DNA from: Bacteroidota bacterium
GTDB lineage: Bacteria > Bacteroidota > Ignavibacteria > UBA10030 > UBA8401
DNA length: 55,314 nucleotides
NCBI GenBank assembly: GCA_005792285.1
Contig: SXSI01000024.1
Location: forward strand, 1 to 55,314
Direction of reading: 5' to 3'
Shown: positions 27,024-45,413 of the stretch, in pieces
Layout of the letters: each line of letters begins with the position of its first letter
Numbering within the stretch: position 1 is the first letter of the stretch
The notes under the pieces: generated by a model
Told to the model about the DNA's origin: nothing
What the model saw: the letters and a program-made list of their open reading frames with translations, nothing else
Databases searched by the model: none
Position numbers and translations under genes: made by a program

Positions 27024-27484
27024 TTTGAGTTTACCTTTCTGATAATCTGATGTAAATATAATTTAAAAAAAGTAAAATTTTATAAATAATAATTATGTCG
27101 GCAAGTTACTATTTTAAACATCCATCAAATATTTTTTATTGAATTTTAACAATCAGCAAAAAGCAGATTAAAAAAGGTAAAACAGACTATTTATTGATTG
27201 TACTGTTATATACAAACACTTGTGAAAACCCCGCAACCCTTATTACTCTACTATAATAGTACGTGTTCTTAAACTCACTATATCTATCAAACTTCTTTAA
27301 AATGCTTATGTTTTATAGTCTTTTTGTCGGAGTGCATATTAAACGGAGCAAATTCCTTAATTTTCCCATTTCAGTCTTATAAATGTAAATATTAAAAAAA
27401 TGAGAATTTTAATTGACATTAACTAAGATAATAGTTTAATTAGGTATAGTATTTTTCAACTAACCATTATTGGAGGATGTTAAG
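27024..27484. other. Regulatory gap before the SusC/SusD pair
   Basis: This 461-nt AT-rich region between a divergent DHS-like gene and susC holds no credible ORF. Near 27413 a TTGACA is followed 17 nt later by TTAATT, a weak sigma70-type promoter candidate. An imperfect palindrome CTCTACTATAATAGTA lies at 27244-27259. GGAGG at 27472-27476 is the susC ribosome-binding site. Confidence 0.45.
27472..27476 (+). promoter_or_regulatory. Shine-Dalgarno site deciding the SusC start
   Basis: GGAGG ends 8 nt before ATG at 27485. A TTG at 27470, also in frame, overlaps this site and so cannot be the start. Such a consensus site is rarely seen in Bacteroidota and supports an Ignavibacteriota-type host for this region. 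Confidence 0.85.
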
Positions 27485-30400
27485 ATGAAAAGTTATTTAA
27501 AGGTATTAGTTTTATTTTTATTACCCGTCATGTTGTACTCACAAGCAGGAACAGTTGCAGGAAAAGTTTCTTCAACCACTGGAGAAACATTACCTGGAGT
27601 TAATGTTGTAATTCAAATTCAAGCATTAACACTTGGAAGCGTAACTGATCCAAACGGGAATTTTACAATTTCAAATGTTCCGGCAGGAAAACACAAAGTA
27701 ATTTCACGATTGATTGGTTACAGAAGTGAAACAAAAGAAATTAATGTTGATGTCGGTCAAATTGCAGAATTAAATTTTGCTCTATCAACTTCCGCTGTTC
27801 AGATTGATGAAGTTGTTGTTACAGGAGCAGGTGCTGCAGTTGAAAAAATGAAATTGGGGAATACAGTTTCAACTATTTCATCTCAAGCATTGAAAGAAGC
27901 ACCAATCTCTTCATTCTCAGATGCGTTGTCAGCAAGAGTTGCAGGAGTTATGTTGATGCCAACTGGAGGATTAACTGGTGAAGGTGCGCAAATAAGAATT
28001 CGCGGTAATGCAAGTTTATCGCAATCGAACGAACCAATAGTTTATGTAGATGGTATTCGAGTTGATAATGGTGGCGGATTTGCCGGAATTGGAATTGGAG
28101 GAGGAGGCACACCATCGCGACTCGATGATATTAATCCAGCTTCAATTGAAAGAGTTGAAATTTTAAAAGGTGCTGCTGCTGCAACTTTGTATGGCTCACA
28201 AGCTAATGCAGGTGTCATTCAAATTTTTACAAAACAAGGATCTGTTTCACCTTTAAAATTTAATTTTGAAATGCAACAATCTTCAACACAGTTTTCAGAA
28301 ACTGCGTACAAAAAAAATGCTGGCTTCGCACGCGATAGCGCATCAGCGGCAAGAATGAGTACAATTTATGGTACTACAATTAAACCATTTGAAATTGTTG
28401 AAAGAACTAATGTAAACGATCTATTTGATAATAGTTTCACTGGAAGTGGAGTTGGAAGTTCTTATTCACTATCTGCATCAGGCGGTGGTACTGGCGTAAC
28501 TTATTTTATTAATGGTCGCTACATGCAACAAGGAAGTCCGATTAGTCCGCAATCATCAAATTTCTTTGATAGAACAAAATTAGGCGATGCAACTAGTTCT
28601 GTTGCTCGCGGTCAAATGAGTGCTACAATAAATGTTGTTCCAACCGATGCATTTCGATTAAGATTAAGTACTATGTATAGTAACATTTCACAACAGGCAA
28701 TTGATAATAATAATAATATTTATGCACCGGTTACTTTAGCACAATTTAGTAAACCAGAACTTGTTCAAAAAATTGGTGTTGCTGGTTCTTTGGTTGACAA
28801 TGCAATGGGTAATGCTGCATTTGCTACTGTTAGAGAAGGGTTTTTTCAGGAAACAAAAGATCGAACAGACCATGGTAATGTTGCAATTACTGGAAGTTAT
28901 AATATTGGTACAACACTAACTCTCGAAACAACTGCCGGAATAGATTATATTTCTCAAAGAAGTTCGAACTTTAATCCTTTTGGATGGAATGTTGACAGTA
29001 AGGTAACTGTAAGTACTAATGGCGAACTTTCCGTTGGAACAAATATTAAAAGAAATATTACTTTTGATTCTAAAGCAATTTGGAATACAAATTTTGCTGA
29101 AAACTTATCATCACAATTAATTCTTGGTTTACAAGCATTTCAAACTTCTGTTAATACTGCCGGTGGATATGGACAAACATTCCCAGGTCCCGGAATTGAA
29201 ATACTTGGTGCTGGACAAACACAAACAACATATTCAGGATTTTCAGAAATTAAACAATTAGGGTATTTAGTTCAGAATCAATTAGGTTTTGAGGATTACG
29301 CATACTTAACTACCGGTGTGAGATTAGATGCAAACAGTGCATTCGGTACTGAATTTAAAACTGCAACTTATCCTAAAGTTAGTTTATCATTCTTACCAAT
29401 TAAAGCTGGTTTAATGCCGGGCGATTTAGGAGTTTCAACTTTAAGATTACGTGCTGCAGTTGGAAGTTCCGGACAACAACCTGGTGCTTTCGATCAGTTA
29501 ACAACTTATCTTGCATTCCGTGCCCCGGATGGTTCAGGTGTTGCTCCAGGAAATCTTGGCAACCCACAATTAAAACCTGAAACTTCAACTGAAATTGAAT
29601 TCGGCGCAGAAATTGGATTACTTGATGATCAACTCGCATTAGAATTTACAAGTTGGAACAGAGTTGTAAAAGATGCACTTGTTGCCCGAGCTTTTGCTCC
29701 ATCAGGTGGATTTTACAGAACACAACTTGACAATATTGGTGAGTTAACAGCCAACGGTCTTGACTTGCAAATTACTTACCACGCAATCAGAACAGAGGAC
29801 TTCTCATTTTCAGTAAATGCAAGTGCTGCAAATTTAACAGAAAAAATTACAAACTTGGGAGGTGCACCACCATTTAAAGTTGGCGGTTCTTATCCACGTT
29901 ATAGAAACTTTACAAAAGAAGGTTTTGCTCCAGGTGCTTTTTTTGGTCCAAAATTAGCTCCTGTTGATATTCCAATTGATATGAATAAAGATGGAATTGC
30001 AGATACACGTGATACAATTAGAAAATATGTTCATGATGCAAATGTTGGGAAATTATTTAATCCAGGAAACCTTCTTCCACTATTACTTGCAAAAGATGAA
30101 GTTTCTTATATCAAAGGTGGAGCAACACCATATCTTGAACATTATCTCGGCAAACCAACTCCCGATTGGCAAGGTTCTTTTGGAACTAATATGACATTCA
30201 TGGGAAACATCAGATTAAATACAGTGTTCGAATATAAATTTGGTGAGTTTTATGTTCATAATTTAACAGATGCATTCCGCAGAGCACATCCAACAATCGG
30301 AAGAAATTTATTACGCCCTGCAGAACTCGAAGCTATTTTAGCAAATCCTGCAAGTACAGCAGATCAACGAGTTGATGCTGCAATTGAATGGGTAAAAACA

Positions 30401-30712
30401 ACTACAGCTCTTTCCCCTTACGATGGATTAAATGAAGTTGAAAATATTTATTTAGTTCGCTTAAGAGAAATAAGTTTGACTTATGATGTCCCGGCAGAAA
30501 TGTCTTCGATGTTTGGTGTAAGTAATGCTTCTGTAACTTTTTCAGGAAGAAATTTAATGATCTGGACAGATTATTCCGGTACCGATCCTGAAATTAATGA
30601 ATACAGCAGAGGTGCAACCGGAACACAAGAACAAAATTTTGGTGTAGGAATTGATGCATTTGGTATTCCGATTCCAAAACAATATTTCTTCACATTACGA
30701 TTTGGTTTATAA
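27485..30712 (+). CDS. SusC/RagA-family TonB-linked outer-membrane receptor
   Basis: This outer-membrane transporter of about 1075 residues has a signal peptide (MKSYLKVLVLFLLPVMLYSQ) and then a carboxypeptidase-like regulatory domain (GTVAGKVSSTTGETLPGVNV … TSSNVPAGKHKV-like). A plug follows (DEVVVTGAG, QIRIRGNASLSQSNEPIVYVDGIRV split by loops, VEILKGAAAATLYGSQANAG), and then a beta-barrel ending in QYFFTLRFGL with the terminal aromatic-x-Leu pattern. It would import oligomers, with the SusD-like lipoprotein as lid. Glycine-rich GGGFAGIGIGGGGT in the plug is unusual. No glycosidase is linked, so the substrate is unknown. Confidence 0.95.
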   Translation: MKSYLKVLVLFLLPVMLYSQAGTVAGKVSSTTGETLPGVNVVIQIQALTLGSVTDPNGNFTISNVPAGKHKVISRLIGYRSETKEINVDVGQIAELNFALSTSAVQIDEVVVTGAGAAVEKMKLGNTVSTISSQALKEAPISSFSDALSARVAGVMLMPTGGLTGEGAQIRIRGNASLSQSNEPIVYVDGIRVDNGGGFAGIGIGGGGTPSRLDDINPASIERVEILKGAAAATLYGSQANAGVIQIFTKQGSVSPLKFNFEMQQSSTQFSETAYKKNAGFARDSASAARMSTIYGTTIKPFEIVERTNVNDLFDNSFTGSGVGSSYSLSASGGGTGVTYFINGRYMQQGSPISPQSSNFFDRTKLGDATSSVARGQMSATINVVPTDAFRLRLSTMYSNISQQAIDNNNNIYAPVTLAQFSKPELVQKIGVAGSLVDNAMGNAAFATVREGFFQETKDRTDHGNVAITGSYNIGTTLTLETTAGIDYISQRSSNFNPFGWNVDSKVTVSTNGELSVGTNIKRNITFDSKAIWNTNFAENLSSQLILGLQAFQTSVNTAGGYGQTFPGPGIEILGAGQTQTTYSGFSEIKQLGYLVQNQLGFEDYAYLTTGVRLDANSAFGTEFKTATYPKVSLSFLPIKAGLMPGDLGVSTLRLRAAVGSSGQQPGAFDQLTTYLAFRAPDGSGVAPGNLGNPQLKPETSTEIEFGAEIGLLDDQLALEFTSWNRVVKDALVARAFAPSGGFYRTQLDNIGELTANGLDLQITYHAIRTEDFSFSVNASAANLTEKITNLGGAPPFKVGGSYPRYRNFTKEGFAPGAFFGPKLAPVDIPIDMNKDGIADTRDTIRKYVHDANVGKLFNPGNLLPLLLAKDEVSYIKGGATPYLEHYLGKPTPDWQGSFGTNMTFMGNIRLNTVFEYKFGEFYVHNLTDAFRRAHPTIGRNLLRPAELEAILANPASTADQRVDAAIEWVKTTTALSPYDGLNEVENIYLVRLREISLTYDVPAEMSSMFGVSNASVTFSGRNLMIWTDYSGTDPEINEYSRGATGTQEQNFGVGIDAFGIPIPKQYFFTLRFGL

Positions 30713-30715
30713 GAA

Positions 30716-30720
30716 AGGAG
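30716..30720 (+). promoter_or_regulatory. Shine-Dalgarno site deciding the SusD start
   Basis: AGGAG lies 7 nt before the ATG at 30728 but only 1 nt before an in-frame ATG at 30722. The downstream start is therefore preferred. Confidence 0.75.
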
Positions 30721-30727
30721 CATGAAA

Positions 30728-32020
30728 ATGAAAACAAATAAAATTCAAAAAATATTTTCTGTTATACTTCTTTCTCTGCTAATTATTAGTGGATGTTCTG
30801 AAGGATTAAAAGTAACAAATCCAAATAACTTATTAGAAAAAGATTTAGAAGATTATACAGGTGCGGCAGGAATAGCCAATGGCGCAAATGGAACCGTACT
30901 TCAAGGCATAGGTTATGTTTATGCACCTTACGAAACTGCAACAGACGAAGTTTATTGGATTGGTTCTCGCGATGCTTGGAATGAATTAGATAAAGGAAAT
31001 ATCTCCGATTATTATAATGAGTTCGTAGATCAATCTTGGCCATATATTTCTGAAGGAAGATGGATGGCTGATAAAGCAGTTTCACAACTTGAAGGATTCA
31101 GATCGGCTAACACTTTAATTAATGTAACTGATCTTGGAAGATGTTATTTATATGCTGGTTTAGTTAGAGTTGTTATTGGCGAAACTTTTGACAATTTCGT
31201 TTATTCAGATAAAACAGCATCAGGAACACCGATTGGAAAAAGTAAAATGAATACAATTTTTGACGAAGCAATTGTGAAACTTGACTCTGCTTATAATATC
31301 GGAAATCGAGCAGCCAATGCCGATATGAAAAAAAGAGCAATGGGTTTAAAAGCAAGAGCTTTACATTCCAAAGCAGTTTGGACTTCATTAAATAATCCGG
31401 AAGGTACTGTTGCAAAACAATATGAAGATGCAGGCGCTACAGAAGCAACTTCCGCAATAGCTTTAATGGGAGCAACTACTGACTACAGATGGAAACCAGA
31501 TTATTTTGGTGTAGTATTATTTAACGAACTAGCTTGGGAAATTGTTGGACGCAGTGAATTACAAATTAACGCTGCACCAATTGATCCTGTTACAAAAGCA
31601 AGAGACACTAGATGGATTGCAGATAGTGCAGATTTCAAAAATAAAGTTGCTTACAGCGATCGTTATTCTCCAATTACATTTACTTCAACAAAGGAAATGC
31701 ATTTGATTGTTGCAGAGTCGCAAGTTTCTAAAAATGATTTTGCAGGAGCAATTGCAACTTTGAATAAAATTAGAGCATTAAATACTGGATTGGCTACAAT
31801 TTCATCAACAATGTCAAATGACTCAGTCAAAATACAATTGAAACATGAAAGAAGAGCTAACACTCTTTTACAGGGAAGAAGATTGAATGATATGTATCGA
31901 TGGGATGTAAAAGATGCTAAATGGCTTCCAGCTAATATTACTTTTACAGCGTCGGGTCGTTTGTTACCAATTACTATTCAAGAAAGACGTGCAAACGCTA
32001 ATGTAACTGATAACGATTAA
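30728..32020 (+). CDS. SusD/RagB-family outer-membrane lipoprotein
   Basis: This nutrient-binding lipoprotein of about 430 residues has a signal peptide with lipobox LIISGC. The SusD fold is indicated by the helical TPR-like region (GRCYLYAGLVRVVIGETFDN), the KARALHSKAVW segment and the C-terminal NKIRALNTGL and RRANTLLQGRRLNDMYRW segments typical of RagB/SusD. It pairs with the SusC gene 15 nt upstream and would cap the transporter. It is followed by a strong terminator, so the locus is a two-gene operon without enzymes. Confidence 0.93.
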   Translation: MKTNKIQKIFSVILLSLLIISGCSEGLKVTNPNNLLEKDLEDYTGAAGIANGANGTVLQGIGYVYAPYETATDEVYWIGSRDAWNELDKGNISDYYNEFVDQSWPYISEGRWMADKAVSQLEGFRSANTLINVTDLGRCYLYAGLVRVVIGETFDNFVYSDKTASGTPIGKSKMNTIFDEAIVKLDSAYNIGNRAANADMKKRAMGLKARALHSKAVWTSLNNPEGTVAKQYEDAGATEATSAIALMGATTDYRWKPDYFGVVLFNELAWEIVGRSELQINAAPIDPVTKARDTRWIADSADFKNKVAYSDRYSPITFTSTKEMHLIVAESQVSKNDFAGAIATLNKIRALNTGLATISSTMSNDSVKIQLKHERRANTLLQGRRLNDMYRWDVKDAKWLPANITFTASGRLLPITIQERRANANVTDND

Positions 32021-33253: not shown

Positions 33254-35236
33254 ATGAATTACTCTTCATTCGATAAAAATATTCCAACCGATAAATTAAT
33301 TTCAATTTATAAATCATTATTGCTGCCAAGATTGTTCGAAGAAAAAATGTTACTCCTTCTTCGACAAGGAAGAATATCAAAATGGTTTTCAGGAATCGGA
33401 CAGGAAGCAATTTCTGTTGGCGCAACTTTGTCGCTAAATAATGATGAATACATTTTGCCGATGCATAGAAATCTCGGAGTATTCACTTCGCGCGGAATTC
33501 CAATTGCAAAACTATTTGCACAGTTACAGGGTAAGATGAGTGGATTTACAAAGGGAAGGGAGCGTTCATTTCATTTTGGTTCAAAAGAATTTCACATTAT
33601 CGGAATGATTTCTCATCTCGGTCCTCAACTCGCCGTTGCAGATGGAGTTGCACTTGCGTATAAATTGAGAAATGAAAAGAAAACTACAATTGTTTTTACT
33701 GGAGATGGAGGAACAAGTGAAGGAGATTTTCATGAAGCACTTAATGTTGCCGCAGTTTGGGATTTGCCAGTTATCTTTATAATAGAGAACAATCAATATG
33801 GACTCTCGACACCAACTTCTGAACAATACAAATGCAAAAATTTAACAGATAAAGGAATTGGTTATGGAATTGAAGCAATCCAAATAGATGGGAATAATAT
33901 TTTAGAGGTTTATTCAACAATTTCAAAGATTGCAGAAGAACTCAGGCAAAAGCCACGCTCTATTATAGTAGAGTGTCTAACTTTCAGGATGCGTGGCCAT
34001 GAAGAGGCTTCTGGAACAAAATATATTTCGAAAGAGCTCTTTACCGAATGGGAAAAGAAAGATCCAGTTCTGAATTACGAGAGATATATAATAGAGTCAA
34101 AACTTCTTTCCCAAACAGAAATACAGAATATCCGTCAATTAATTAAAACGGAGATTGAAACTGAAGTAGAGAAAATTTTTATTGAACCAGAAGTAATGCC
34201 GAATAGTGAAATTGAATTAGCAGATGTTTATGCGCCATATAATAGAGTGGAAACACCACCCTCAACAAATAAAAAAAATATGAGATTTGTTGATGCAATT
34301 TCTGATGGATTAAAAGAAGGAATGAGAAAATTTCCAAATTTAATTTTAATGGGACAAGATATTGCCGAGTATGGAGGAGTATTTAAAGTAACGGAAAATT
34401 TTATAAATGAATTTGGAAAAGACCGAGTTCGCAATACACCACTTTGTGAATCTGCAATTCTCGGAGCATCACTTGGTATGTCAATTGTTGGAATAAAATC
34501 TGTTGTCGAAATGCAATTCGCAGATTTTATTTCAAGCGGCTTCACGCAAGTTGTAAATAATCTTGCAAAAATTTATTATCGGTGGGGAGCAAATGCTGAT
34601 GTTGTAATTCGAATGCCATGCGGAGCTGGAAGTGGCGCTGGTCCATTTCATTCTCAAACAAATGAAATGTGGTTTGCGCATACACCTGGATTAAAAATTG
34701 TTTATCCTTCTTCGCCGGAAGATGCTAAAGGATTATTATTATCTGCAATCGAAGATCCGAACCCAGTTTTATTTTTTGAACATAAATCTTTGTATCGAAG
34801 TGTGACTGGTGAAGTACCGGAAAATTATTTTACAATTCCAATTGGAAAAGGAAAAATTGTACGCGAAGGAAATGATGTTACAATAATTACTTACGGTTAC
34901 GGAGTGCATTGGGCAACAGAAACAGTTAATCAATTAAAAAATATTTCTGCAGAAATTATTGAATTGCGTTCAATTGTTCCACTTGATATGGAAATAATTT
35001 ATTTATCTGTTAAAAAAACGGGACGTGTAATTATATTGCACGAAGATTCTTTATTTGGTGGAATTGGTGGAGAGATTTCTGCTCGCATAACTGAAGAATG
35101 TTTTGCAAATCTCGATGCACCTGTTATCAGGTGTGGCGCATTGGATACACCAATTCCATTTGCAAAACCACTTGAATTAAATTACCTACCAAAGCAAAGA
35201 TTTATTGAAGCACTCAATAAGCTTGTAAAATATTGA
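33254..35236 (+). CDS. 2-oxoacid dehydrogenase E1, fused alpha and beta subunits
   Basis: This 660-residue protein combines an E1-alpha (residues about 1-320) with the thiamine-diphosphate motif TGDGGTSEGDFHEALNVAAV and IENNQYGLSTPTSEQ, and an E1-beta (about 342-660) with MGQDIAEYGGVFKVTENF, PCGAGSGAGPFHSQTNE and HEDSLFGGIGGEI. It decarboxylates a 2-oxoacid (branched-chain or pyruvate type; the family does not settle which) and passes the acyl group to lipoyl E2. No E2 or E3 gene lies in the window. It follows the frameshifted gene by 23 nt. Confidence 0.93.
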   Translation: MNYSSFDKNIPTDKLISIYKSLLLPRLFEEKMLLLLRQGRISKWFSGIGQEAISVGATLSLNNDEYILPMHRNLGVFTSRGIPIAKLFAQLQGKMSGFTKGRERSFHFGSKEFHIIGMISHLGPQLAVADGVALAYKLRNEKKTTIVFTGDGGTSEGDFHEALNVAAVWDLPVIFIIENNQYGLSTPTSEQYKCKNLTDKGIGYGIEAIQIDGNNILEVYSTISKIAEELRQKPRSIIVECLTFRMRGHEEASGTKYISKELFTEWEKKDPVLNYERYIIESKLLSQTEIQNIRQLIKTEIETEVEKIFIEPEVMPNSEIELADVYAPYNRVETPPSTNKKNMRFVDAISDGLKEGMRKFPNLILMGQDIAEYGGVFKVTENFINEFGKDRVRNTPLCESAILGASLGMSIVGIKSVVEMQFADFISSGFTQVVNNLAKIYYRWGANADVVIRMPCGAGSGAGPFHSQTNEMWFAHTPGLKIVYPSSPEDAKGLLLSAIEDPNPVLFFEHKSLYRSVTGEVPENYFTIPIGKGKIVREGNDVTIITYGYGVHWATETVNQLKNISAEIIELRSIVPLDMEIIYLSVKKTGRVIILHEDSLFGGIGGEISARITEECFANLDAPVIRCGALDTPIPFAKPLELNYLPKQRFIEALNKLVKY

Positions 35237-35255: not shown

Positions 35256-35327
35256 TTTATTAATATTAATAAAAAAGTAAAAAAAATAATAATTTGTATT
35301 GACATCAATACAAATTATTTGTAAAGT
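35256..35327 (+). promoter_or_regulatory. Promoter with overlapping 32-nt palindrome before the second TonB receptor
   Basis: TTGACA (35299-35304), 17 nt, then TAAAGT (35322-35327) form a sigma70-type promoter. A 14-bp perfect inverted repeat, AATAATTTGTATTG and CAATACAAATTATT with an ACAT spacer (35288-35319), covers the -35 element and half the spacer. This is the arrangement of a repressor operator. Just upstream is another perfect palindrome, TTTATTAATATTAATAAA (35256-35273), which is AT-only and less informative. The start codon of the receptor follows at 35404. Confidence 0.65.
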
Positions 35328-35403: not shown

Positions 35404-38400
35404 ATGGTCTTACGTAGACTAGTTTTACTTTTTACTTTTTCATTTTTAGTTTTACCAATTGTGTTGTTTGCACAAGATGGTAAGATGCGTGGAAAAGTAA
35501 CTGACAAAGCAAACGGCGAAGCGCTTATTGGAGCAACAGTTTCAATTAGTGGTACATCGCTTGGTGCTGCAACAGATGTAAATGGTGAGTATGTAATTTT
35601 GGGTGTTCCCGCAGGAAGTTATTCTATAAAATCTTCATTCGTGGGATATGCGACAGTTACAATTTCTAATGTTCGTATTGCATCTCAAACTACAACTTCT
35701 CAGGATTTTGCAATGCAAAGTTCTGACGTTCAAGTTTCAGCAGTAGAGGTTACTGCAGAGCGTCAACTTATTCAGCGTAACACAACAAATACTGTTCGTG
35801 TTAACACGCAAGAAAGTATTGAGAACCTCCCAATTCGAGGACTTCAAAATATTGTTGCACTCGAAGCAGGTGTTTCGCAAAAAGATGGAAAACTTTATGT
35901 ACGTGGAGGTCGGGCTGGTGAAGTTGCATATTTTATTGATGGTGCAAACACTACGAACCCATTCGACAATTCACAAAATATAAATGTTATTCAAGAAGCT
36001 CTTGAAGAAGTTCAAATTCAAACCGGTGGTTACACCGCAGAATATGGCGGAGCAAACTCAGGTCTTGTAAGAAGTACATTACGAACCGGTGGTTCAAATT
36101 ATAATGCAACTATTGATTTACAAATGGATGGTACTGAGGGTGCCGAACAATTTGGAACAGTTGCAAATGGATACAAAAATTTTGTTGTAACAGCTGGTGG
36201 TCCACTTTTAATGGATGATCTTAGATTCTTTGCTGCTTACCAAAATAACAGCATAGATAACAGACAAGGAATTTGGTTAGAGCCATTTAAATTTGAAGGA
36301 TTAACAACAGACGACAAGGGTTCACTTGCTTCTGGTATTCCGCTTCCTGGTCCTGTTGAATTAAAGAAAAATTCTTTACCAGGTAATTATCTTAAAAATT
36401 CCCAAATGCAAGGAACACTTCTTTACAATATGGGTGATATGAAATTAAAAGTATCAGGCGCATATGAGACCTCAGAAACTCAAGGTGGAACTTCATGGCC
36501 TTCATATTTAACTTATATTTTTAATCAAAAGAAGAATATGATAAACGAAACGCAACGAACATTTGTTTCGGGACGTTTAACTTATATTTTAAACCCAACC
36601 ACATTTGCTGAATTTGGTGTTTCTGCACAATCAAGAGCTTCTCGTTCATACGATGGAGATTTTGGTGATGACTGGAAATTATATGTTGATAGTGCTGCAA
36701 ATTATGAAAAAGGTTATGGCGCAAGTGATTACATTGTTGATGGAGATACTTTTAAAACCGTAAATAAATGGAAAACCAGATATAATGGTCCTGATGTATT
36801 TTCAACAATTTTCCAATTTAACTTTGCTGCTCCAGACGCACCAAATAATAGTTATTCAAAGAGTTCGCAAAAATCAATTGGGTTAACTGGAGATTTTACA
36901 TCGCAAATTACTCCTCGTTGGGAAGTTAAAGCCGGATTCAATTCTGAAACTTGGGACATTCGTTCTTACTCAGTTGGAAGTATTTCTGGTTATTTAACAA
37001 AATTAGATCCAGATAAAAATGGAGTAGCTAACGAAACACAGTTTACAAGTGATTATGAAAGAACTATTTCATTAATCAGAGCTGGTGGTATCTCAAATAT
37101 CGGTTGGAATTATGATGGAACTGCAGAAGCAGAAGGTAGTGATGTAGTTACAAAACCAGGAGCACCAGTAACAATGAGTGCTTACCTTCAAAATAAATTA
37201 GAGTACAGTGATCTTATTTTCAACTTTGGTCTTCGTTATGAAAGCTTTACACCAAACGGAACAACAATTAAAGCAACTACAAATCCAGTTTCAAAAGTAG
37301 ATGATTTAAATCAACCAGAAGTAAACGAATTAAATCAGTTGGTGGAAGCAAGTAAAGGCGAGACAGATTCATATACTTATATATTGCCACGGGTTAGTTT
37401 TAGTTTCCCAGTAACTGACAAAACTGTTTTCTATTCTCAGTTTGGAAAATATGTTCAAATGCCTTCATTAAACCAACTTTATGTTAGCGACGTTACATTG
37501 AGTTCATTGGTAAATCAATCAACACGCTCACCTTATAACCTTGGTGGTTCAGCAATTGGATTTATGATGAAGCCAGAAAGATTAACTTCATACGAACTTG
37601 GTTTCAGACAAATCTTAACAGACAATCTTGGATTTACTCTAACAGGATTCTACAAAGACACAAAAGACCAACTTCAATTAAAACGTGTTTTTAATTCTCA
37701 AGGCAATCCAATGTTTGTTGCATTCCAAAATGATGATTTTGGTACACAATCAGGTGTTGAGTTAACTTTAGAATTACGCAGAACAAATAGAATATCTGCA
37801 AAATTAAACTACACATTATCTGAAGCAAGAGGAACTGGCTCAACATCACGATCTGCACAAAATGCAGTTACAGATGATAGTCAAGCAAGATTCCCAAATT
37901 TTGTATATTCACTTGACCACAACTATACACATCGCGGTAGTGGAATGATTGACTATCGTTTTGCAAAAGGTGAAGGTGGATTATTAGAAGGTGCCGGAGT
38001 AAATGCACTTCTTACTTTTAATAGTGGACATAACTATACAAAAATTCTTGAACCACAAAACCTTGGACAAGCAACAGCTTGGAATATTGGAGTTCGTGCA
38101 TTGATAGACTCACGAAGCAGAAATCCAGTAGAACCAATTAATAATTCTTCAACACCATGGTATTTTAATATCGATTTAACAGCAAACAAAACAATTTATG
38201 TTGGTGGAATAAATCTTGATCTTTATGTTCGTGTTGAGAATTTCTTAAACACAAAACATATCTTGAATATCTTCCCAACAACAGGTACAACTGGTGATGA
38301 TGGATGGTTGAAGAGTCCATTTGCTGTCTCTTATAAAGATATTCCAAACTACGAAGCATTCTACAGAGATGTTATTCTTGCTAACCGTTGGGCATATATG

Positions 38401-38496
38401 GGTATTGGTGCTGGTGGCGGATTGGGTGGAATGGCCGGTGGTGATCTTTTTGGTGCTCCACGTAAAGTTCAATTTGGCTTGAAAGCCGAATTATAG
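35404..38496 (+). CDS. TonB-dependent receptor with carboxypeptidase-like N-domain
   Basis: This outer-membrane receptor of about 1030 residues has a signal peptide (LLFTFSFLVLPIVLFAQ), a carboxypeptidase-regulatory-like domain (MRGKVTDKANGEALIGATV to SSFVGYATVT) and a plug (LYVRGGRAGEVAYFIDGAN, EEVQIQTGGYTAEYGGANSG). A long barrel ends in KVQFGLKAEL and is preceded by a Gly-rich segment MGIGAGGGLGGMAGGD. It lacks a SusD partner and instead is followed by a T9SS cargo protein and a PorV-like protein. This three-gene layout recurs in Ignavibacteriota by my recollection. Ligand unknown. Confidence 0.93.
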   Translation: MVLRRLVLLFTFSFLVLPIVLFAQDGKMRGKVTDKANGEALIGATVSISGTSLGAATDVNGEYVILGVPAGSYSIKSSFVGYATVTISNVRIASQTTTSQDFAMQSSDVQVSAVEVTAERQLIQRNTTNTVRVNTQESIENLPIRGLQNIVALEAGVSQKDGKLYVRGGRAGEVAYFIDGANTTNPFDNSQNINVIQEALEEVQIQTGGYTAEYGGANSGLVRSTLRTGGSNYNATIDLQMDGTEGAEQFGTVANGYKNFVVTAGGPLLMDDLRFFAAYQNNSIDNRQGIWLEPFKFEGLTTDDKGSLASGIPLPGPVELKKNSLPGNYLKNSQMQGTLLYNMGDMKLKVSGAYETSETQGGTSWPSYLTYIFNQKKNMINETQRTFVSGRLTYILNPTTFAEFGVSAQSRASRSYDGDFGDDWKLYVDSAANYEKGYGASDYIVDGDTFKTVNKWKTRYNGPDVFSTIFQFNFAAPDAPNNSYSKSSQKSIGLTGDFTSQITPRWEVKAGFNSETWDIRSYSVGSISGYLTKLDPDKNGVANETQFTSDYERTISLIRAGGISNIGWNYDGTAEAEGSDVVTKPGAPVTMSAYLQNKLEYSDLIFNFGLRYESFTPNGTTIKATTNPVSKVDDLNQPEVNELNQLVEASKGETDSYTYILPRVSFSFPVTDKTVFYSQFGKYVQMPSLNQLYVSDVTLSSLVNQSTRSPYNLGGSAIGFMMKPERLTSYELGFRQILTDNLGFTLTGFYKDTKDQLQLKRVFNSQGNPMFVAFQNDDFGTQSGVELTLELRRTNRISAKLNYTLSEARGTGSTSRSAQNAVTDDSQARFPNFVYSLDHNYTHRGSGMIDYRFAKGEGGLLEGAGVNALLTFNSGHNYTKILEPQNLGQATAWNIGVRALIDSRSRNPVEPINNSSTPWYFNIDLTANKTIYVGGINLDLYVRVENFLNTKHILNIFPTTGTTGDDGWLKSPFAVSYKDIPNYEAFYRDVILANRWAYMGIGAGGGLGGMAGGDLFGAPRKVQFGLKAEL

Positions 38497-38497
38497 T

Positions 38498-38502
38498 AGG
38501 AG
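38498..38502 (+). promoter_or_regulatory. Shine-Dalgarno site for the 1183-residue cargo protein
   Basis: AGGAG lies 6 nt before the ATG at 38509. This supports the longer N-terminus (MNKMTIKKEMKNNMK) ahead of the signal peptide, although internal ATGs exist. Confidence 0.7.
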
Positions 38503-38508
38503 CCCACA

Positions 38509-41500
38509 ATGAATAAAATGACCATTAAAAAAGAAATGAAAAACAATATGAAAACAAAATTTATCTTGAGCTTACTTGTGATTTGCTTACTGTCCTTTGT
38601 TGCAGAAGCAAAAACACCAAAAGATCAAAAACAAGAATCAAAAGGATCGCTATCTAATTCAGCAGGTGATCCAAAATACCAGATTCTAAATATTAATAAT
38701 TTAACAACATGGCATGCCCATGATGGAAAATCTAACCACTCACCAAATGGTGTTGATGGAACAAGATTCCCAAGAAATGCCTATACCCTAATTTATCAGG
38801 ATGGTGTTGTTTGGGGTGGTAAAGTTTTTACAGATACTGCTATAACAACCCCAGCTTCACTTCAACCGATACGTGTTGGTGGTGGAACTTATGGAGTTGG
38901 AACAAAAGCTGGTTGGATAAACGGAACTGGTGCTACAGCTACTGCAGAACCAATTACTTCAGCTGGTGTAAAAATTTATCGTGTTCGTCGTGATTTTAAA
39001 TCGATGTCACAAAATGAATTAAAAATTGATGCTGCTGAATCATATGAAAAATCAATCGATGAAGTTAGCTCAGGAGAAATGGCTGCGATTATAACCCAGT
39101 ATCAAACGGATTGGGATACATGGCCAGTTGCAAAAGGTGCTCCATATATCGAAAGAAATGGAACAACCGGTTATCAAGCTCCACCAGCTGGTTGGACAGT
39201 TGATGATTTAATTGCAAACAAACTTGATGAACCAGGATTAGCAGGTTCAGATCCAAATTCACCAGCAGATCAAGTTCTTTGGACAGTTTATAATGATTTG
39301 GATGCAACACAATCCACAGGATTTTTGGGTTCAAACCCAATTGGTATTGAGTGCCAAAAAACAATTTGGGGCTATAAACGCTCTGATGCTCTCGGGAGTA
39401 TTTATTTTGGTAAATACAAACTAATTAATAAAGGTGGAGCAACAACTGAAGGTACCACTAAAGGAACATTCACAATTGATAGTATGTATGTTTGTCAATG
39501 GTCAGATCCTGATATGGGAACCTTCTCTGATGATATAATTGGTTGCGATACACTTTTAAGCATGGGATACGTTTATAATGCAAATGCAGTCGATCAAGTT
39601 TATCGTTCATACGGTTATCCACCACCAGCAGCAGGATATGACTTTTTACAAGGTCCTGCAGTTTCAAGTGTTGCGGGTGACTCAGCTGTATTTAATTTAA
39701 AATATGTTAAAGGAAAGAAAAATCTTGGTATGTCTTCATTTTCTTATTTCTCCGCAGGTAGTGCTTACTCAGACCCACCAGGTGGAGCAGCAAGTTATGA
39801 TGCAGGTTCAGGAAGATGGTGGAAGATGTTAAGAGGATTTGCTCCTTTGGGAGATTTTAAAACCGCAGATATACCTTATGCAAGTGGTCCATTTCCAGCT
39901 TCTAAATTTCCACTTTCAGGTGACCCAGTAAAACGAACAGGATTTCTTGATGGACTTGGTCAAGCATACTCAGTTGCTCCTGGTGATCGTCGTTTATTAT
40001 TAACAACTGGACCATTCAAGATGCGTCCTCAAGAAGAACAAGAAATTGTTGTTGGACTAGTTTGCGGTATGGGTTCAGACAGATTATCAAGCGTTTCAGT
40101 TATGAAATTCAATGATCAATTTGCTCAAAACACATATAATGGTTTATTCGCAGTTGCTTCTGCTCCAGCAGCTCCTTCACTTGGAATTACAGAACTCGAT
40201 GGTAAAATAGTTTTAGATTGGGGAAGTAATTTAACTGTTGTAAAAAATACAGAAACAAAAATTAATCAACCAGGTGGATATAGATTTGAAGGTTATAATC
40301 TTTATCAACTTCCTTCAAAAGCTTCAACATTAGCTGAAGCAAAAAGAATTGCTACATTTGATACCGATGCTGATCCAACAACTGTTCTGGATATACAATT
40401 TGATCAAAGATCTGGTCAAATTTTAAGTATTCCAGTTCAATACGGATCCAACAGTGGAATAAGTAGAAATTTTGTTATCGACCGTGATTGGGTTAAGGAC
40501 ATTGGTAAATTAAATAACGGACAAGAATATTATTTTGCTGTTACAGCTTATTCAGTTGCAACAGTTTCTGGTTTCTTGCCGGCTGCTTTAGAATCTTCAC
40601 CTTTAATTTATGTAGCAAAATCTAAAATACCATTTGGTACTAATTATGCAAATAAATATGGCGATACCTTAGCTTACAGAAAATATATTGTTACAGGAAG
40701 CGGTGCATTATCAACCGATGGTTCTGTTGTACCAATTGTTGTTAGCCCTTCTTCTGCAAATGGAAAAGCTTATAGAGTTAATTTTGATACAACTGGTGGT
40801 TCTACTTCATGGAAATTAACTAATACTACAGATAATAAAATTATACTAACCGGAAAATCAAACCAAAATGATGATGGTAATTATGATATGGTTGAAGGTG
40901 GAATATTTTTAAAAGTTCTCGGACCACCACCAGGTTTAAAGCGTAGAGATATGTTTGATGCTGCAGATCCAAACCTATGGGGTTGGAATTGGGTGTCTGG
41001 TTTACGAAACTTAACTTGGGGTGGCGGTGCCAACGCATTAGCTTTTGAGAGTTTCCAAGGTGCAGTTGGTTATACTACTGCTGCAACATACTTTAACGGC
41101 ATCCCACCGGCAATTTCTGCTGCAAATTTAAAAAAGGTTGAACTCAGATTTGCTAATGTTACAATAGATGCAGCAACAGGAAATTTCACATGGGATAAAA
41201 ACCAAGCAAATGCTTCTTTTGGATATCGTTATGTGAGAGCAGGTGCGTCGGCCAGTGCAAAACCTGAATTCTCTCCATTCTTACTTAGACCATGGAATGG
41301 TTCTTATGGATTTAATGCATTTGAAAAAAATGTACCACTTGCTGTTTATGATATGGATGCTACGCCTCCAAGAAGATTAACAGTTGGATTTCTTGAAAAT
41401 AACGTAGCTGGTGGAAGAGTAAATGGTGTATATGATCCTCCTAATTTTAATGTTGGTGATAATGTTGCATCAACTGGACCTCGTGAATGGCTATTTATTT

Positions 41501-42060
41501 CTAATCGAACATATTCAGAAACCTTGAATCCATTGGATACACTTAGTGCACTTTCAAATGTCATGCAATATATGTATTTTGCAACATGGGCTAGAAGAAA
41601 TGATAATCCATGGACAGCTGTAGGAACTGATGCACAAAAACTACAATTAATTCCAAATAGAATTAATACATTAAATCATTTCTACGAATATACAGTAACT
41701 GCTCCTACGAAAAATGATTCATTAGATAATGCTAGTTGGGATAGAGTTGGTGTATATCCAAATCCTTATTATGCATCGAACGCACAAGAAACTAATCGCT
41801 TCTCACGGTTTGTAGTATTTAATAATTTACCAAAAGTAACTAAAATTAAAATCTACAACCTAGCTGGGCAGTTAGTAAGAACACTTAGTAAAGATGATAG
41901 TGAACAATTTCTTAAATGGGATTTACTTAACACAGATAACTTCCCAATTGCAAGTGGAATGTACATTGCATATGTAACAGGTACAGTCACAAGTGGAGAA
42001 AAAACTAAAATTCTTAAACTTGGTGTAATTCAAGAACAAGAAATATTAACAAGCTTTTAA
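38509..42060 (+). CDS. Large T9SS-secreted protein of the TonB/PorV module
   Basis: This 1183-residue exported protein has a basic N-extension, a hydrophobic signal (FILSLLVICLLSFVAEAK) and a C-terminal T9SS sorting domain (VGVYPNPYYASNAQETN, KIKIYNLAGQLVRTL, SGMYIAYVTG). The body is rich in Gly, Ser, Asp and Tyr and has segments such as GGYRFEGYNLYQLPSK and EYYFAVTAYSV that resemble fibronectin-type or extracellular beta-sandwich domains. No catalytic motif is evident. It starts 12 nt after the receptor stop and ends 2 nt before the next ATG, so it is exported by T9SS and probably works with the receptor at the surface. Confidence 0.8.
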   Translation: MNKMTIKKEMKNNMKTKFILSLLVICLLSFVAEAKTPKDQKQESKGSLSNSAGDPKYQILNINNLTTWHAHDGKSNHSPNGVDGTRFPRNAYTLIYQDGVVWGGKVFTDTAITTPASLQPIRVGGGTYGVGTKAGWINGTGATATAEPITSAGVKIYRVRRDFKSMSQNELKIDAAESYEKSIDEVSSGEMAAIITQYQTDWDTWPVAKGAPYIERNGTTGYQAPPAGWTVDDLIANKLDEPGLAGSDPNSPADQVLWTVYNDLDATQSTGFLGSNPIGIECQKTIWGYKRSDALGSIYFGKYKLINKGGATTEGTTKGTFTIDSMYVCQWSDPDMGTFSDDIIGCDTLLSMGYVYNANAVDQVYRSYGYPPPAAGYDFLQGPAVSSVAGDSAVFNLKYVKGKKNLGMSSFSYFSAGSAYSDPPGGAASYDAGSGRWWKMLRGFAPLGDFKTADIPYASGPFPASKFPLSGDPVKRTGFLDGLGQAYSVAPGDRRLLLTTGPFKMRPQEEQEIVVGLVCGMGSDRLSSVSVMKFNDQFAQNTYNGLFAVASAPAAPSLGITELDGKIVLDWGSNLTVVKNTETKINQPGGYRFEGYNLYQLPSKASTLAEAKRIATFDTDADPTTVLDIQFDQRSGQILSIPVQYGSNSGISRNFVIDRDWVKDIGKLNNGQEYYFAVTAYSVATVSGFLPAALESSPLIYVAKSKIPFGTNYANKYGDTLAYRKYIVTGSGALSTDGSVVPIVVSPSSANGKAYRVNFDTTGGSTSWKLTNTTDNKIILTGKSNQNDDGNYDMVEGGIFLKVLGPPPGLKRRDMFDAADPNLWGWNWVSGLRNLTWGGGANALAFESFQGAVGYTTAATYFNGIPPAISAANLKKVELRFANVTIDAATGNFTWDKNQANASFGYRYVRAGASASAKPEFSPFLLRPWNGSYGFNAFEKNVPLAVYDMDATPPRRLTVGFLENNVAGGRVNGVYDPPNFNVGDNVASTGPREWLFISNRTYSETLNPLDTLSALSNVMQYMYFATWARRNDNPWTAVGTDAQKLQLIPNRINTLNHFYEYTVTAPTKNDSLDNASWDRVGVYPNPYYASNAQETNRFSRFVVFNNLPKVTKIKIYNLAGQLVRTLSKDDSEQFLKWDLLNTDNFPIASGMYIAYVTGTVTSGEKTKILKLGVIQEQEILTSF

Positions 42061-42070
42061 TCATGAATAC

Positions 42071-42074
42071 GGAG
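42071..42074 (+). promoter_or_regulatory. Shine-Dalgarno site choosing the PorV-like start
   Basis: GGAG lies 9 nt before the ATG at 42084, while an in-frame ATG at 42063 has no such site. The downstream start also places the signal peptide at the N-terminus. Confidence 0.65.
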
Positions 42075-42083
42075 AAAAAAACA

Positions 42084-43130
42084 ATGAAAAATTCTTTTAA
42101 ATTTATCAGTGTGCTCTTATGCATGATTATTCTTGTATCAGAGTATAACACACAAGCACAAAACAAACGAACTGGAACTGCAGCTGCAACGCAACTTCTA
42201 ATTCCATCGGGTGGCAGAGATTTTGCACTTGGCGGATCTAGTATTGCAACTACAAGTGGTGTTGAAGCTATGTATTGGAATCCAGCTGGACTTGCACGAA
42301 TGAAAGATGCAGCTCAAGGAATGTTTTCCGATATGACATACATTGCTGATATCGGTGTAAGTAATTTCGCAGTTGGCGGAACATTTGGCGATTTTGGTAC
42401 AGTTGGTATGAGTATCAAATCACTTGATTTTGGAGATATTCCAAATACAACTGAAGATGATCCAGAAAATTCAGGTGAAAGATTTTACTCACCAGATTTT
42501 TCAACTCTTGCTTTCACATATGCAAAAAATCTTTCAGATGCCGTAACAGTTGGTTTAACAGGAAAAATAGTTTCTGAGAAAATTCTTGATGCCAATTCAA
42601 CCGGATATGCATTAGATATGGGTGTACAGTATGCAAACCTTGTTGGTATTACAGGTTTGGATCTTGGTATTGCAATTAGAAATATCGGTCCAAAAATGCA
42701 ATATGGTGGATCTGGTTTATACAGAAAAGCAGAAGGAACATCTGGTTCACGTCCAGAACAAGCGTATAAACTTGAAGCAGCAACATTTGAACTTCCTACA
42801 ACTATTGATCTTGGAGTAGCATATAATGTGGATCTCGATGGTATAAAAGCATCTTTCACTAGTGCTTATTCAAACAATAGTTTGTATGTAGATGAATTCA
42901 AATTTGGTGGAGAAGTTTCTTACACTGCAAGTGATGGATTGATTATTTATGGTCGTGGCGGAAAAGCTGCTGCACAAGTAACAAATGCTGATGATGATAT
43001 ATTTGGTATTGTAATGGGTGGTGGTGTTACTTTTACAACAGAAGGTTTAGCAATTACAGTTGATTTTGCAAACCGTGCCGTTAAAGATCTTGGTAACAAC
43101 AACGTACTTTCAGTAAAATTAGGTTTCTAA
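42084..43130 (+). CDS. PorV/PorQ-family outer-membrane beta-barrel protein
   Basis: This protein of about 348 residues has a signal peptide (FKFISVLLCMIILVSEYNTQAQ) and the family N-terminal signature LLIPSGGRDFALGGSSIATTSGVEAMYWNPAGLAR. Alternating amphipathic strands follow to the C-terminal VLSVKLGF. PorV delivers T9SS cargo to the attachment complex, and paralogues often sit next to particular cargo genes. Here it directly follows the 1183-residue cargo. A dedicated shuttle role is inference. Confidence 0.9.
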   Translation: MKNSFKFISVLLCMIILVSEYNTQAQNKRTGTAAATQLLIPSGGRDFALGGSSIATTSGVEAMYWNPAGLARMKDAAQGMFSDMTYIADIGVSNFAVGGTFGDFGTVGMSIKSLDFGDIPNTTEDDPENSGERFYSPDFSTLAFTYAKNLSDAVTVGLTGKIVSEKILDANSTGYALDMGVQYANLVGITGLDLGIAIRNIGPKMQYGGSGLYRKAEGTSGSRPEQAYKLEAATFELPTTIDLGVAYNVDLDGIKASFTSAYSNNSLYVDEFKFGGEVSYTASDGLIIYGRGGKAAAQVTNADDDIFGIVMGGGVTFTTEGLAITVDFANRAVKDLGNNNVLSVKLGF

Positions 43131-43152: not shown

Positions 43153-43190
43153 AAAAGGCTGATTCCTAAAAGAGTCAGCCTTTTTTATTT
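43153..43190 (+). terminator. Rho-independent terminator of the TonB/T9SS-cargo/PorV operon
   Basis: AAAAGGCTGATTC and GAGTCAGCCTTTT form a stem of about 13 bp with one G-U pair around a loop CTAAAA. It is followed by TTTTTTATTT and lies 22 nt after the stop. Confidence 0.93.
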
Positions 43191-43202: not shown

Positions 43203-45413
43203 ATGAAAATTATATTTACAATATTATTAATAACTACATTGTTATATAGCTCCGATCAAAGCTCTAAACTTAACTTCCTTGGGAAAGAATTAAAAAGAGA
43301 TTTATCTGTACTATTTATTTCTCAAGAACCGGGGCAGGAAGATTTTGCAACTATCGCATATTTTAGATATCAGCTTGGCGCAACAATTACAAGTGCTTAT
43401 GTAACTAATGGAGAGGGAACTTACCATTTAAGAGAAGATAAATTACCTGCGGATGTTGCTCCAGTTCGGCGTGAGGAAGCTGCAAACATTATTAAACTTG
43501 TAAAGGGTGAACATTTCTTTATGAATATGATTTACACCGTCCCAAATTCGATTAAAGAATTACAGCAGGATTGGGAAAAAGTAGAATTAGAAAAAAATAT
43601 TAAAGAGCTATTACTAGCTTCTCAGCCGGATGTGATAATATTATTTAAAGAGAAGAATTACCTGCAAAATAATTACAGAAGTAAATTATTTACAACAACA
43701 CTCTCCGCATTTCTAAAAAAGTCAGCAGTCCAAAAAGAGTTTGGCAAAATAACTATTCTTGAAGAAGGTGGTACTGGAAATGAAATAAATATAAACCAAT
43801 TCAGCGAAGAACTTCACGAAAGCTATCAAACATACGGTCAGTTTATTAAAATGTTTTATCGTTCGTTGCCTCAAAATATTCAAGCTGCAGATTCAATATC
43901 CAAAAATAGTTTTTATTCCGTTGCTGGCTCTTCAACAAAAGTAAAATGGGAAAGTATTATTTCGCCAGAATTGCAGGAAACAAAAAATTTAGTAACAGAA
44001 ATCGGTACATTACTACAGAATAAAACAATTAAAAAACTGCCATTACTTGAAAATATTGCAATTGCAATTAGTGTAATAGATTCAAAATTAAGAAATAAAA
44101 AAATCAGGAATGATAAAAAATCTGTATCGGTATTATTCAACTGGAAAAAGAAACTTGAAAATGCACGAGTTAATTTACTTGGAGTAAAAATATATTACAC
44201 CCTTTCAGAAAAAACAATTGCTCCTGTTCAGCTTACATATTTGGATATTGATTCAGTTGTCTTCCCAAAAGAGTTAAAAGGAAAAACCGAAATTTATTTT
44301 CCATTAACTTCTCAAGGATGGATTATAAATGAAGAATTAACAAGTTTGATGCCATTCGAAAGCGGAACCAGATATCGGATAATATCACCAAGAGATCTTA
44401 CATCGTTTTTACCAGCTCACCGATATTATACTTATAGAAGAACAATAACTTTACCATTTAAATATTTTGTAATTCATTACGATGATGATCCATTTTATAA
44501 TTTTATGTTGGAAGATAATTTGGAATTTATTCCTGCAGATCGGTTTATAGTTGAACCAAGGTGGCCAATAATTAAATTACAAAAAAATGAAAAAGTACCG
44601 ATGTATTTGGCAAATAATTCAAGAGATCCAGTTCGTGATAAACTTAATGTAAATGATTCACTCGCTACAGGACCGGAAATAAATTTCAGATTAATGACAA
44701 AAGGAGATATTCAAGAAGATACGCTTGTTATAGAAAAAGTTCGTCCTGCACAAGATGGAAATTATTTATTAAATATTGCAATTCAAGGCGATGTTGTTTC
44801 AAGAGTTGCCGCAAGAAAGTTTGACGTAAAAACTGATTCAACAAAAAGTATATTCATCCGAACACAATCTAAGATTGAACCAATTATAAAAATTGCATTA
44901 AATAGAATTAGATTAAATACAACTGCGAGTTCCACGATAACAGGAGATATTTTGTCTGATATTATTATAATTGATAGAAATGATTTATCTAAAAAAGCAT
45001 TTAAAGAAGAAGAAATAAAAATACTGTTTACATTTCTACAAAATGGTGGAAAGGTAGTTGTCCTTTCACAAGAGTCAGTTTCATGGAATACTCAATCTCT
45101 GTCAAATGAATTGAATATAATGTGCGATCCGACAAAAGTTGAACAGAATATTCTGAGTGAAGGTAAAATACTTCTCTCTCCAAATAACATTGAAACTAAA
45201 TTATTTGAAAATTGGTTGTATCAAAAAGTTGATAATAGAATTGTTTATAGTGGCGAAATAGATTTATTGGAAGGAGATAAAAATAATCCAGGAATAATTG
45301 GTAAGCAACTTGGAAAAGGTTATTTAATGTATATAAACCTAAATATTCATCATCAACTTATGAATATTGATCCCGCTACATATAAATTGTTGGGAAATAT
45401 TATTTCCTACTAA
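43203..45413 (+). CDS. Secreted PIG-L-like protein with degenerate metal site
   Basis: This 736-residue exported protein has a short signal peptide (MKIIFTILLITTLLYSS). Residues about 33-150 follow the PIG-L/LmbE N-acetylglucosamine-deacetylase pattern: strand, motif, helix, then VTNGEGTYHLREDKLP, a VRREEAANI helix and QPDVIILFKEKN. The canonical HPDDE motif is replaced by EPGQED (residues 42-47), and the second HPDH-type motif is missing, so zinc-dependent deacetylation is unlikely. The C-terminal part (ILFTFLQNGGKVVVLSQES, GKGYLMYINLNIHHQL) resembles a class-I glutamine-amidotransferase/ThuA-like fold often fused to secreted PIG-L. Possibly a binding protein for glycans. Confidence 0.7.
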   Translation: MKIIFTILLITTLLYSSDQSSKLNFLGKELKRDLSVLFISQEPGQEDFATIAYFRYQLGATITSAYVTNGEGTYHLREDKLPADVAPVRREEAANIIKLVKGEHFFMNMIYTVPNSIKELQQDWEKVELEKNIKELLLASQPDVIILFKEKNYLQNNYRSKLFTTTLSAFLKKSAVQKEFGKITILEEGGTGNEININQFSEELHESYQTYGQFIKMFYRSLPQNIQAADSISKNSFYSVAGSSTKVKWESIISPELQETKNLVTEIGTLLQNKTIKKLPLLENIAIAISVIDSKLRNKKIRNDKKSVSVLFNWKKKLENARVNLLGVKIYYTLSEKTIAPVQLTYLDIDSVVFPKELKGKTEIYFPLTSQGWIINEELTSLMPFESGTRYRIISPRDLTSFLPAHRYYTYRRTITLPFKYFVIHYDDDPFYNFMLEDNLEFIPADRFIVEPRWPIIKLQKNEKVPMYLANNSRDPVRDKLNVNDSLATGPEINFRLMTKGDIQEDTLVIEKVRPAQDGNYLLNIAIQGDVVSRVAARKFDVKTDSTKSIFIRTQSKIEPIIKIALNRIRLNTTASSTITGDILSDIIIIDRNDLSKKAFKEEEIKILFTFLQNGGKVVVLSQESVSWNTQSLSNELNIMCDPTKVEQNILSEGKILLSPNNIETKLFENWLYQKVDNRIVYSGEIDLLEGDKNNPGIIGKQLGKGYLMYINLNIHHQLMNIDPATYKLLGNIISY

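Follow-up and report, generated by a model that had tools for sequence, protein, structure and literature searches.

Receptor, cargo and barrel encoded as a trio

We analysed a 55,314-nucleotide contig of a Bacteroidota bacterium (assembly GCA_005792285.1, contig SXSI01000024.1; the whole stretch is called the window), in which the genes of a TonB-dependent receptor, a large cargo of the type IX secretion system (T9SS) and a PorV-like outer-membrane barrel follow one another. Our data point to a tailored outer-membrane surface unit, where the PorV-like barrel would collect the cargo and anchor it beside the receptor, as PorQ holds PorZ; we give this reading a probability of about 0.5. It is carried by the recurrence of the trio across genomes and by a C-terminal tail of the cargo that goes together with one clade of barrels. 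The first-pass annotation of the window had described a three-gene module of this composition, and the module stands: the three open reading frames (ORFs) are complete, lie in the described order on the + strand with intergenic gaps of 12 and 2 nt, and match the named families.

35404..38496, +, TonB-dependent receptor, 1030 aa: N-terminal carboxypeptidase-regulatory-like domain, plug and barrel (Pfam/NCBIfam profiles)
38509..42060, +, T9SS cargo, 1183 aa: sorting domain and a body that matches no recognised family
41752..42060, +, C-terminal domain of the cargo, residues 1082-1183: type-A-like with W-D-L
42034..42057, +, 8-residue C-terminal tail of the cargo, residues 1176-1183: past the end column of ordinary and PorU signals
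42063..43130, +, PorV/PorQ-family outer-membrane barrel, 355 aa: of the main trio clade and distinct from canonical PorV and PorQ

The receptor start is an ATG preceded by GGAGG; the program-listed ORF begins earlier, with a TTG at 35299.

Recurrence of the trio

The order TonB receptor, cargo, PorV was found for 70 of 94 distinct homologous cargos, a distinct cargo being one that covers half or more of the profile in the fetched regions, which were annotated with custom-built profiles. Such a fixed gene order is beyond chance. Complete trios accounted for 16/31 cargos in the set of the own genome and the order sample, 16/20 in the set of best matches per genome within the order, 19/21 in the same class, 18/20 in other classes and 1/2 in the named records; the regions had been selected for the strength of their match, in most genomes a single one, and these rates apply to strong members rather than to every homologue. 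For seven of the 24 cargos outside complete trios, the region or the contig stops too early to show a whole trio.

The cargo was matched at E 1e-3 in all 60 genomes searched (the own genome and its relatives). At the same threshold the cargo profile matched 180 of the 296 genomes in a sample of the phylum, with a best E below 1e-50 in 83, and many of the 180 matches are weak and may represent the C-terminal domain alone. Cargo and PorV both matched one and the same record, and no other, among 72,556 plasmid records: pRMAR01 of Rhodothermus marinus (locus L083, NC_013502.1, 3212-23800), which carries a trio annotated as TonB-dependent receptor, hypothetical protein and PorV/PorQ family protein. 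Downstream of this trio are the genes of an Amidase_2 protein and of a serine hydrolase. In L080, the other named record, receptor and cargo are present without an adjoining PorV. Ten stretches of viral contigs matched a pattern, none of them a relative, and no description of the trio was found in the open-access literature among the matches listed. Tandem cargo copies without an adjoining PorV occur in L067, L072, L074, L075 and L142; their ends are non-aromatic, except for a W in L075.

The proposal of a dedicated three-gene unit had named unlinked genes in relatives as one ground for refutation; the counts above do not refute it, and the unit is well supported. Additionally, the pairwise distances run parallel in the 51 of the 70 trios with full-length members (receptor-cargo r 0.845, cargo-PorV 0.789, receptor-PorV 0.805), and for each pair 0 of 2000 permutations gave a value as high. 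One would argue that three unrelated surface genes have simply clustered, since these genomes contain many PorV-like and TonB-receptor genes. This explanation is contradicted by an order that is kept across classes and on the Rhodothermus plasmid, as well as by the coupling of tail and PorV clade described below, and we consider it very improbable.

A distinct C-terminal signal coupled to a PorV clade

An alignment of C-terminal signals covered the final 115 residues of 70 trio cargos, 19 PorZ, 17 PorU and 19 ordinary T9SS proteins. The ordinary ones had been picked from matches to the PorU model; PorZ L198, PorU L228 and the ordinary protein L277 were dropped before the count as wrong or missing ORFs. 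A tail of 7-8 residues past the usual end is present in 66 of the 70 trio cargos. Beyond the same column there are no residues in any of the 17 PorU and 19 ordinary signals and 0-2 residues in the 19 PorZ; none of the 55 comparison signals exceeds 2. The last residue of the 70 trio cargos is mostly aromatic (F 32, Y 26, W 1) and otherwise L (5), K (4) or I (2). In the comparison set, type A signals stop with the last motif, in K/R; the window cargo departs from this by its tail, which ends in F. Furthermore, an L follows W-D/N/E in 68/70 trio cargos, versus 1/19 PorZ, 0/17 PorU and 0/19 ordinary signals; G takes this position in 36/55 comparison signals. According to the review PMC10202324, type A signals contact PorM and PorV under the control of their motifs D and E, and in our own reading of the alignment the changes in the trio cargos appear to fall on these two motifs. 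In one similarity cluster of 24 ORFs beside the trios all 22 complete recognisable signals, two of them identical, end in K/R by eye.

The phylogenetic tree of the barrels contained 65 of the 70 trio PorVs (at least 300 aa), 18 PorVs, 18 PorQs and one other protein, including PorQ L171 and PorV L254, which are both probably wrong ORFs. Sixty-one of the 65 trio PorVs share a single branch with support 100/100; L171 also falls on it, by a very long branch. The other four lie on the PorV/PorQ side and belong to three own-genome loci (L060, L061, L062) and to the R. marinus plasmid. The cargo is tailed for 61/61 barrels of the main branch and untailed for 4/4 outside it, and it is tailed in five further trios whose PorV is cut. 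The cargo bodies, with the last 130 residues removed, split identically by a quick method (47 versus 4). Among 99 distinct cargos with a complete end, an aromatic end was found in 68/81 with an adjoining PorV, in 6/16 without and in both of the two cut off by an edge (Fisher p 3e-4, without correction for kinship). That the tail and the clade are coupled argues for the barrel as a dedicated partner of the cargo; the PorV-like shuttle of the first-pass annotation is supported as to its family.

Family membership of the three proteins

The receptor matches PF00593 (74.3 bits), PF07715 (35.1 bits) and PF13715 (66.8 bits), all above cut-off. The third protein meets the PorV/PorQ family model NF033709 (124.6 bits, cut-off 90), and its one sequence match in the PDB is the PorV 6h3i (E 3.2e-9). 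It is neither a canonical PorV (NF033710 equivalog, 63.1 versus 250) nor a canonical PorQ (NF033711 equivalog, 85.8 versus 220). The cargo meets the T9SS type A sorting-domain model TIGR04183 (28.5 bits, cut-off 23) and misses the cut-off of PF18962 (18.6 versus 27). Two NCBIfam models are named for a PorV paralogue (PorV2, NF052325) and for a T9SS protein (inactivated, M6-like, NF052323) and recall the trio in this respect, whereas the trio proteins are far from both whole-protein cut-offs: the barrel scores 63.4 versus 325, and the cargo 22.1 versus 600, matching the last model positions. Judged by these profiles, the membership is one of wide-sense T9SS type A signals and of the PorV/PorQ family, in no named subfamily among those tested.

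As had been proposed, the cargo has no recognised catalytic domain: with Pfam and NCBIfam nothing was recognised outside its C-terminal domain, and at E 0.1 neither a type B domain (PF13585/TIGR04131) nor a SusD match (Pfam) was found. In alignment A1, made of 20 trio and non-trio cargos, PF13585 matched 2/20 members (best E 0.003), while no relatives of the body were found in Pfam and NCBIfam; the 20 members match via the C-terminal domain alone, except for one chance-level match in one member. The PorZ model NF052228 (cut-off 260) is matched at E 0.001 by 17/20 members of A1. The cargo loci recognisable in the PorZ search match the C-terminal model positions (about 661-757), as does the own-genome cargo on contig C28 (30.1 bits, positions 664-757 only). 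A search of PDB sequences with the cargo profile gave no relative (best E 0.67). Within the body an acidic stretch (D333, D335, G337, D341, D342, G345, D347) is conserved in at least 90% of the 51 trios and could bind calcium.

Relation to known secretion and uptake systems

The own genome (1.68 Mb) holds five receptor-cargo-PorV trios, on contigs C15, C28, C43, C21 and C33, and C43 holds also a receptor-PorV pair without a full cargo between. The canonical T9SS parts are encoded separately: SprA (1030.8 bits, cut-off 200), PorU (949.4, cut-off 420), PorV (279.2, cut-off 250), PorQ (232, cut-off 220) and PorZ (377.6, cut-off 260). Therefore, the trio barrels are additional to this machinery.

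The trio is reminiscent of the pairs PorZ-PorQ and PorU-PorV, each of which joins a T9SS-exported protein with a type-A-like domain to a PorV-family barrel; PMC5562754 describes PorZ as held by PorQ and PorU as held by PorV in the anchoring of the attachment complex. Unlike PorZ-PorQ, the main trio barrels form a separate branch, the cargos match PorZ at the C-terminal end only and bear the added tail, and a TonB receptor belongs to the unit. A second parallel is offered by the type B cargos, which pair with a PorP/SprF barrel found bound to the cargo (PMC9143113; PMC12618676): in SprB-SprF and PG1035-PorP, as in the trio, the cargo gene immediately precedes the gene of a dedicated outer-membrane barrel, although the trio signal is type-A-like (TIGR04183) and the trio barrel is of the PorV family.

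The third parallel concerns the uptake side. The usual order in SusCD systems is a SusC gene followed by a SusD gene, and likewise in the trio the gene of a TonB receptor is followed immediately by that of a large partner exposed on the surface. In contrast to SusC-SusD, the trio receptor is far under the SusC model TIGR04056 (49.5 versus 368.25 bits), and the partner has no SusD match and carries a T9SS signal in place of the lipoprotein anchor. The genome has moreover its own SusC/SusD: the window encodes at 27470-32020 a separate SusC-type receptor (27470-30712; 443.3 versus 368.25 bits) and a SusD protein, which is the only SusD match in the genome. These results give no support to the idea that the cargo replaces SusD; a SusD-like role of the cargo may still reasonably be read from the order of the genes and the location at the surface.

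A proposed dedicated surface unit and its alternatives

By analogy with these systems, the trio may work like PorQ-PorZ with a TonB receptor added. The cargo would be exported by Sec and would then cross the outer membrane through the T9SS translocon. Because the tail and the barrel clade are coupled, we infer that the trio barrel, and not the general PorV, collects the cargo by its altered C-terminal domain and tail. This domain would probably stay uncleaved on the trio barrel, as PorZ on PorQ, and serve as the anchor, with PorU on PorV (PMC5562754) and type B cargos on PorP/SprF (PMC9143113) as further precedents; a suggestion in the review PMC10202324 is that cognate PorV-like barrels may shield domains from cleavage. 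The body of about 1050 residues would thereby be fixed at the surface next to the TonB receptor encoded upstream, and the cargo probably binds a ligand or substrate and hands it over for TonB-dependent uptake, a SusD-like role that is the least certain step of the scheme.

One would argue that the trio PorV is instead a specialised shuttle to PorU, in which case the domain is cleaved, the cargo becomes bound to lipopolysaccharide (LPS) or is released, and the receptor is co-regulated without being a physical partner. PorU and PorZ are indeed present in the own genome, the canonical PorV is described in PMC5562754 as such a shuttle, collecting cargo for PorU, and 7/16 cargos without an adjoining PorV end in K/R like ordinary signals. 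However, the tail is tied to the PorV clade (61/61 versus 0/4), and the gene pair of cargo and barrel resembles the type B arrangement, whose barrel has been found bound to the cargo (PMC9143113; PMC12618676). We hold this alternative to be unlikely, at perhaps half the weight of the dedicated anchor.

Several results weigh against the dedicated surface unit. PorU, the sortase, could cleave the cargo domain, and the window cargo is not among the matches to the PorZ equivalog NF052228. A complete trio is lacking for 17/94 cargos with both neighbours in view, 11/17 of which adjoin another cargo. The nearest neighbour is identical for all three proteins in only 26/51 trios, and shared descent and species relatedness likewise produce parallel distances, which are no proof of contact. 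The predictions by AlphaFold 2 were too low in confidence to show an interface, both for the whole cargo from a 3-row alignment (mean pLDDT, the predicted local distance difference test, 30.9) and for a read-through of the L079 cargo C-terminal domain into PorV (4 rows, pLDDT 48.3); the fold alignments were shallow, the single-sequence search of the genome contigs having given 2 loci only. Finally, a scan of 80 downstream neighbours gave as the most frequent families GWxTD (19), lipid A acyltransferase (11) and GT9 (6) rather than genes of uptake or degradation.

These neighbours, together with a cargo body without a catalytic or sugar-binding match, would suit a structural, adhesive or signalling assembly of cargo and receptor that is tied to envelope biogenesis and takes no part in uptake. 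On the other hand, the receptor retains plug and barrel, and five paralogous trios in 1.68 Mb would be better suited to diversification of ligands. We regard such an assembly as improbable, a shade more so than the shuttle to PorU.

If the dedicated surface unit is taken further, the trios may define a phylum-wide class of TonB-dependent uptake systems with a T9SS-exported surface partner, an own PorV-type barrel as its anchor and a third kind of T9SS signal; we put this forward tentatively, as somewhat short of an even chance. If true, receptor, lid or capture protein and protein anchor would form an uptake class parallel to SusCD in function and assembled from secretion-system parts. The third signal kind would be type-A-like, tailed and tied to its own barrel clade. 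All type A signals are recognised by PorV according to the 2025 study PMC12618676, and this one-PorV rule would no longer hold if a PorV-like clade goes with a tailed type-A-like signal. The eight-residue tail would then offer a clean handle on the choice the T9SS makes between release, LPS attachment and barrel anchoring. With five trios against one SusD match, the trio may be a leading surface-capture system of the own genome, and perhaps also of related lineages.

Flanking elements and neighbouring genes

The trio was originally placed between a regulated promoter and a terminator. The candidate elements and the fourth neighbour are:

35288..35319, candidate operator: perfect 15+15-nt inverted repeat, arms 35288-35302 and 35305-35319, 2-nt spacer
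35299..35327, +, promoter-like TTGACA-N17-TAAAGT, consensus match only
43153..43184, +, terminator-like hairpin closing the trio, 13 pairs and then a T-run
43203..45413, +, PIG-L-like protein, 736 aa, 3' of the terminator-like hairpin; also present where near relatives of the window trio occur

The inverted repeat overlaps the -35 of the promoter-like match, which makes a regulated promoter plausible; no inverted repeat was found before the trio receptor in L061, L062 or the same-genus locus L064. The repeat was accordingly rejected as a conserved feature on account of L064. A different, imperfect inverted repeat precedes the trio receptor in L059, and by eye the sequence before the same-genus receptor resembles that upstream of the window trio. 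As to the terminator, a hairpin and T-run were seen by eye 3' of PorV also in L064, L066 (with a different stem sequence) and L070, not in L065. Because the matches in the region are not clearly above shuffles (promoter-like 37 versus a mean of 44.4, i.e. no enrichment; terminator-like 7 versus 5.9, no clear excess), both calls rest on position and relatives.

The PIG-L-like protein follows the trio in 8 loci by similarity clustering; two of them, L068 and L079, are one stretch of contig. Its PIG-L match is below cut-off (26.7 versus 28.2 bits). The PIG-L family carries an HPDD-type motif; the expected site reads PGxED in the window protein and six relatives, and the neighbour may thus be inactive.

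Near the trio PorVs we observed a GWxTD-type similarity cluster in 17 loci (L079, L114, L115, L119, L124, L125, L136, L139-L141, L143-L145, L147, L149, L152, L153), two members of which are GWxTD by Pfam. It is often accompanied by genes of lipid A acyltransferase (11 loci) and GT9. Neighbours of about 450, 300 and 290 aa had been considered as a sugar ABC transporter, which was rejected since Pfam assigns them to GWxTD, lipid A acyltransferase and GT9. The word GWxTD was not found in the open-access papers searched.

Elsewhere in the window, a fused dehydrogenase E1 alpha-beta component is encoded immediately upstream of the trio (33254-35236), and at 7622-13567 there is a T9SS protein of 1981 aa, in which FG-GAP repeats, several Ig-like domains and a match to GH113 were recognised.

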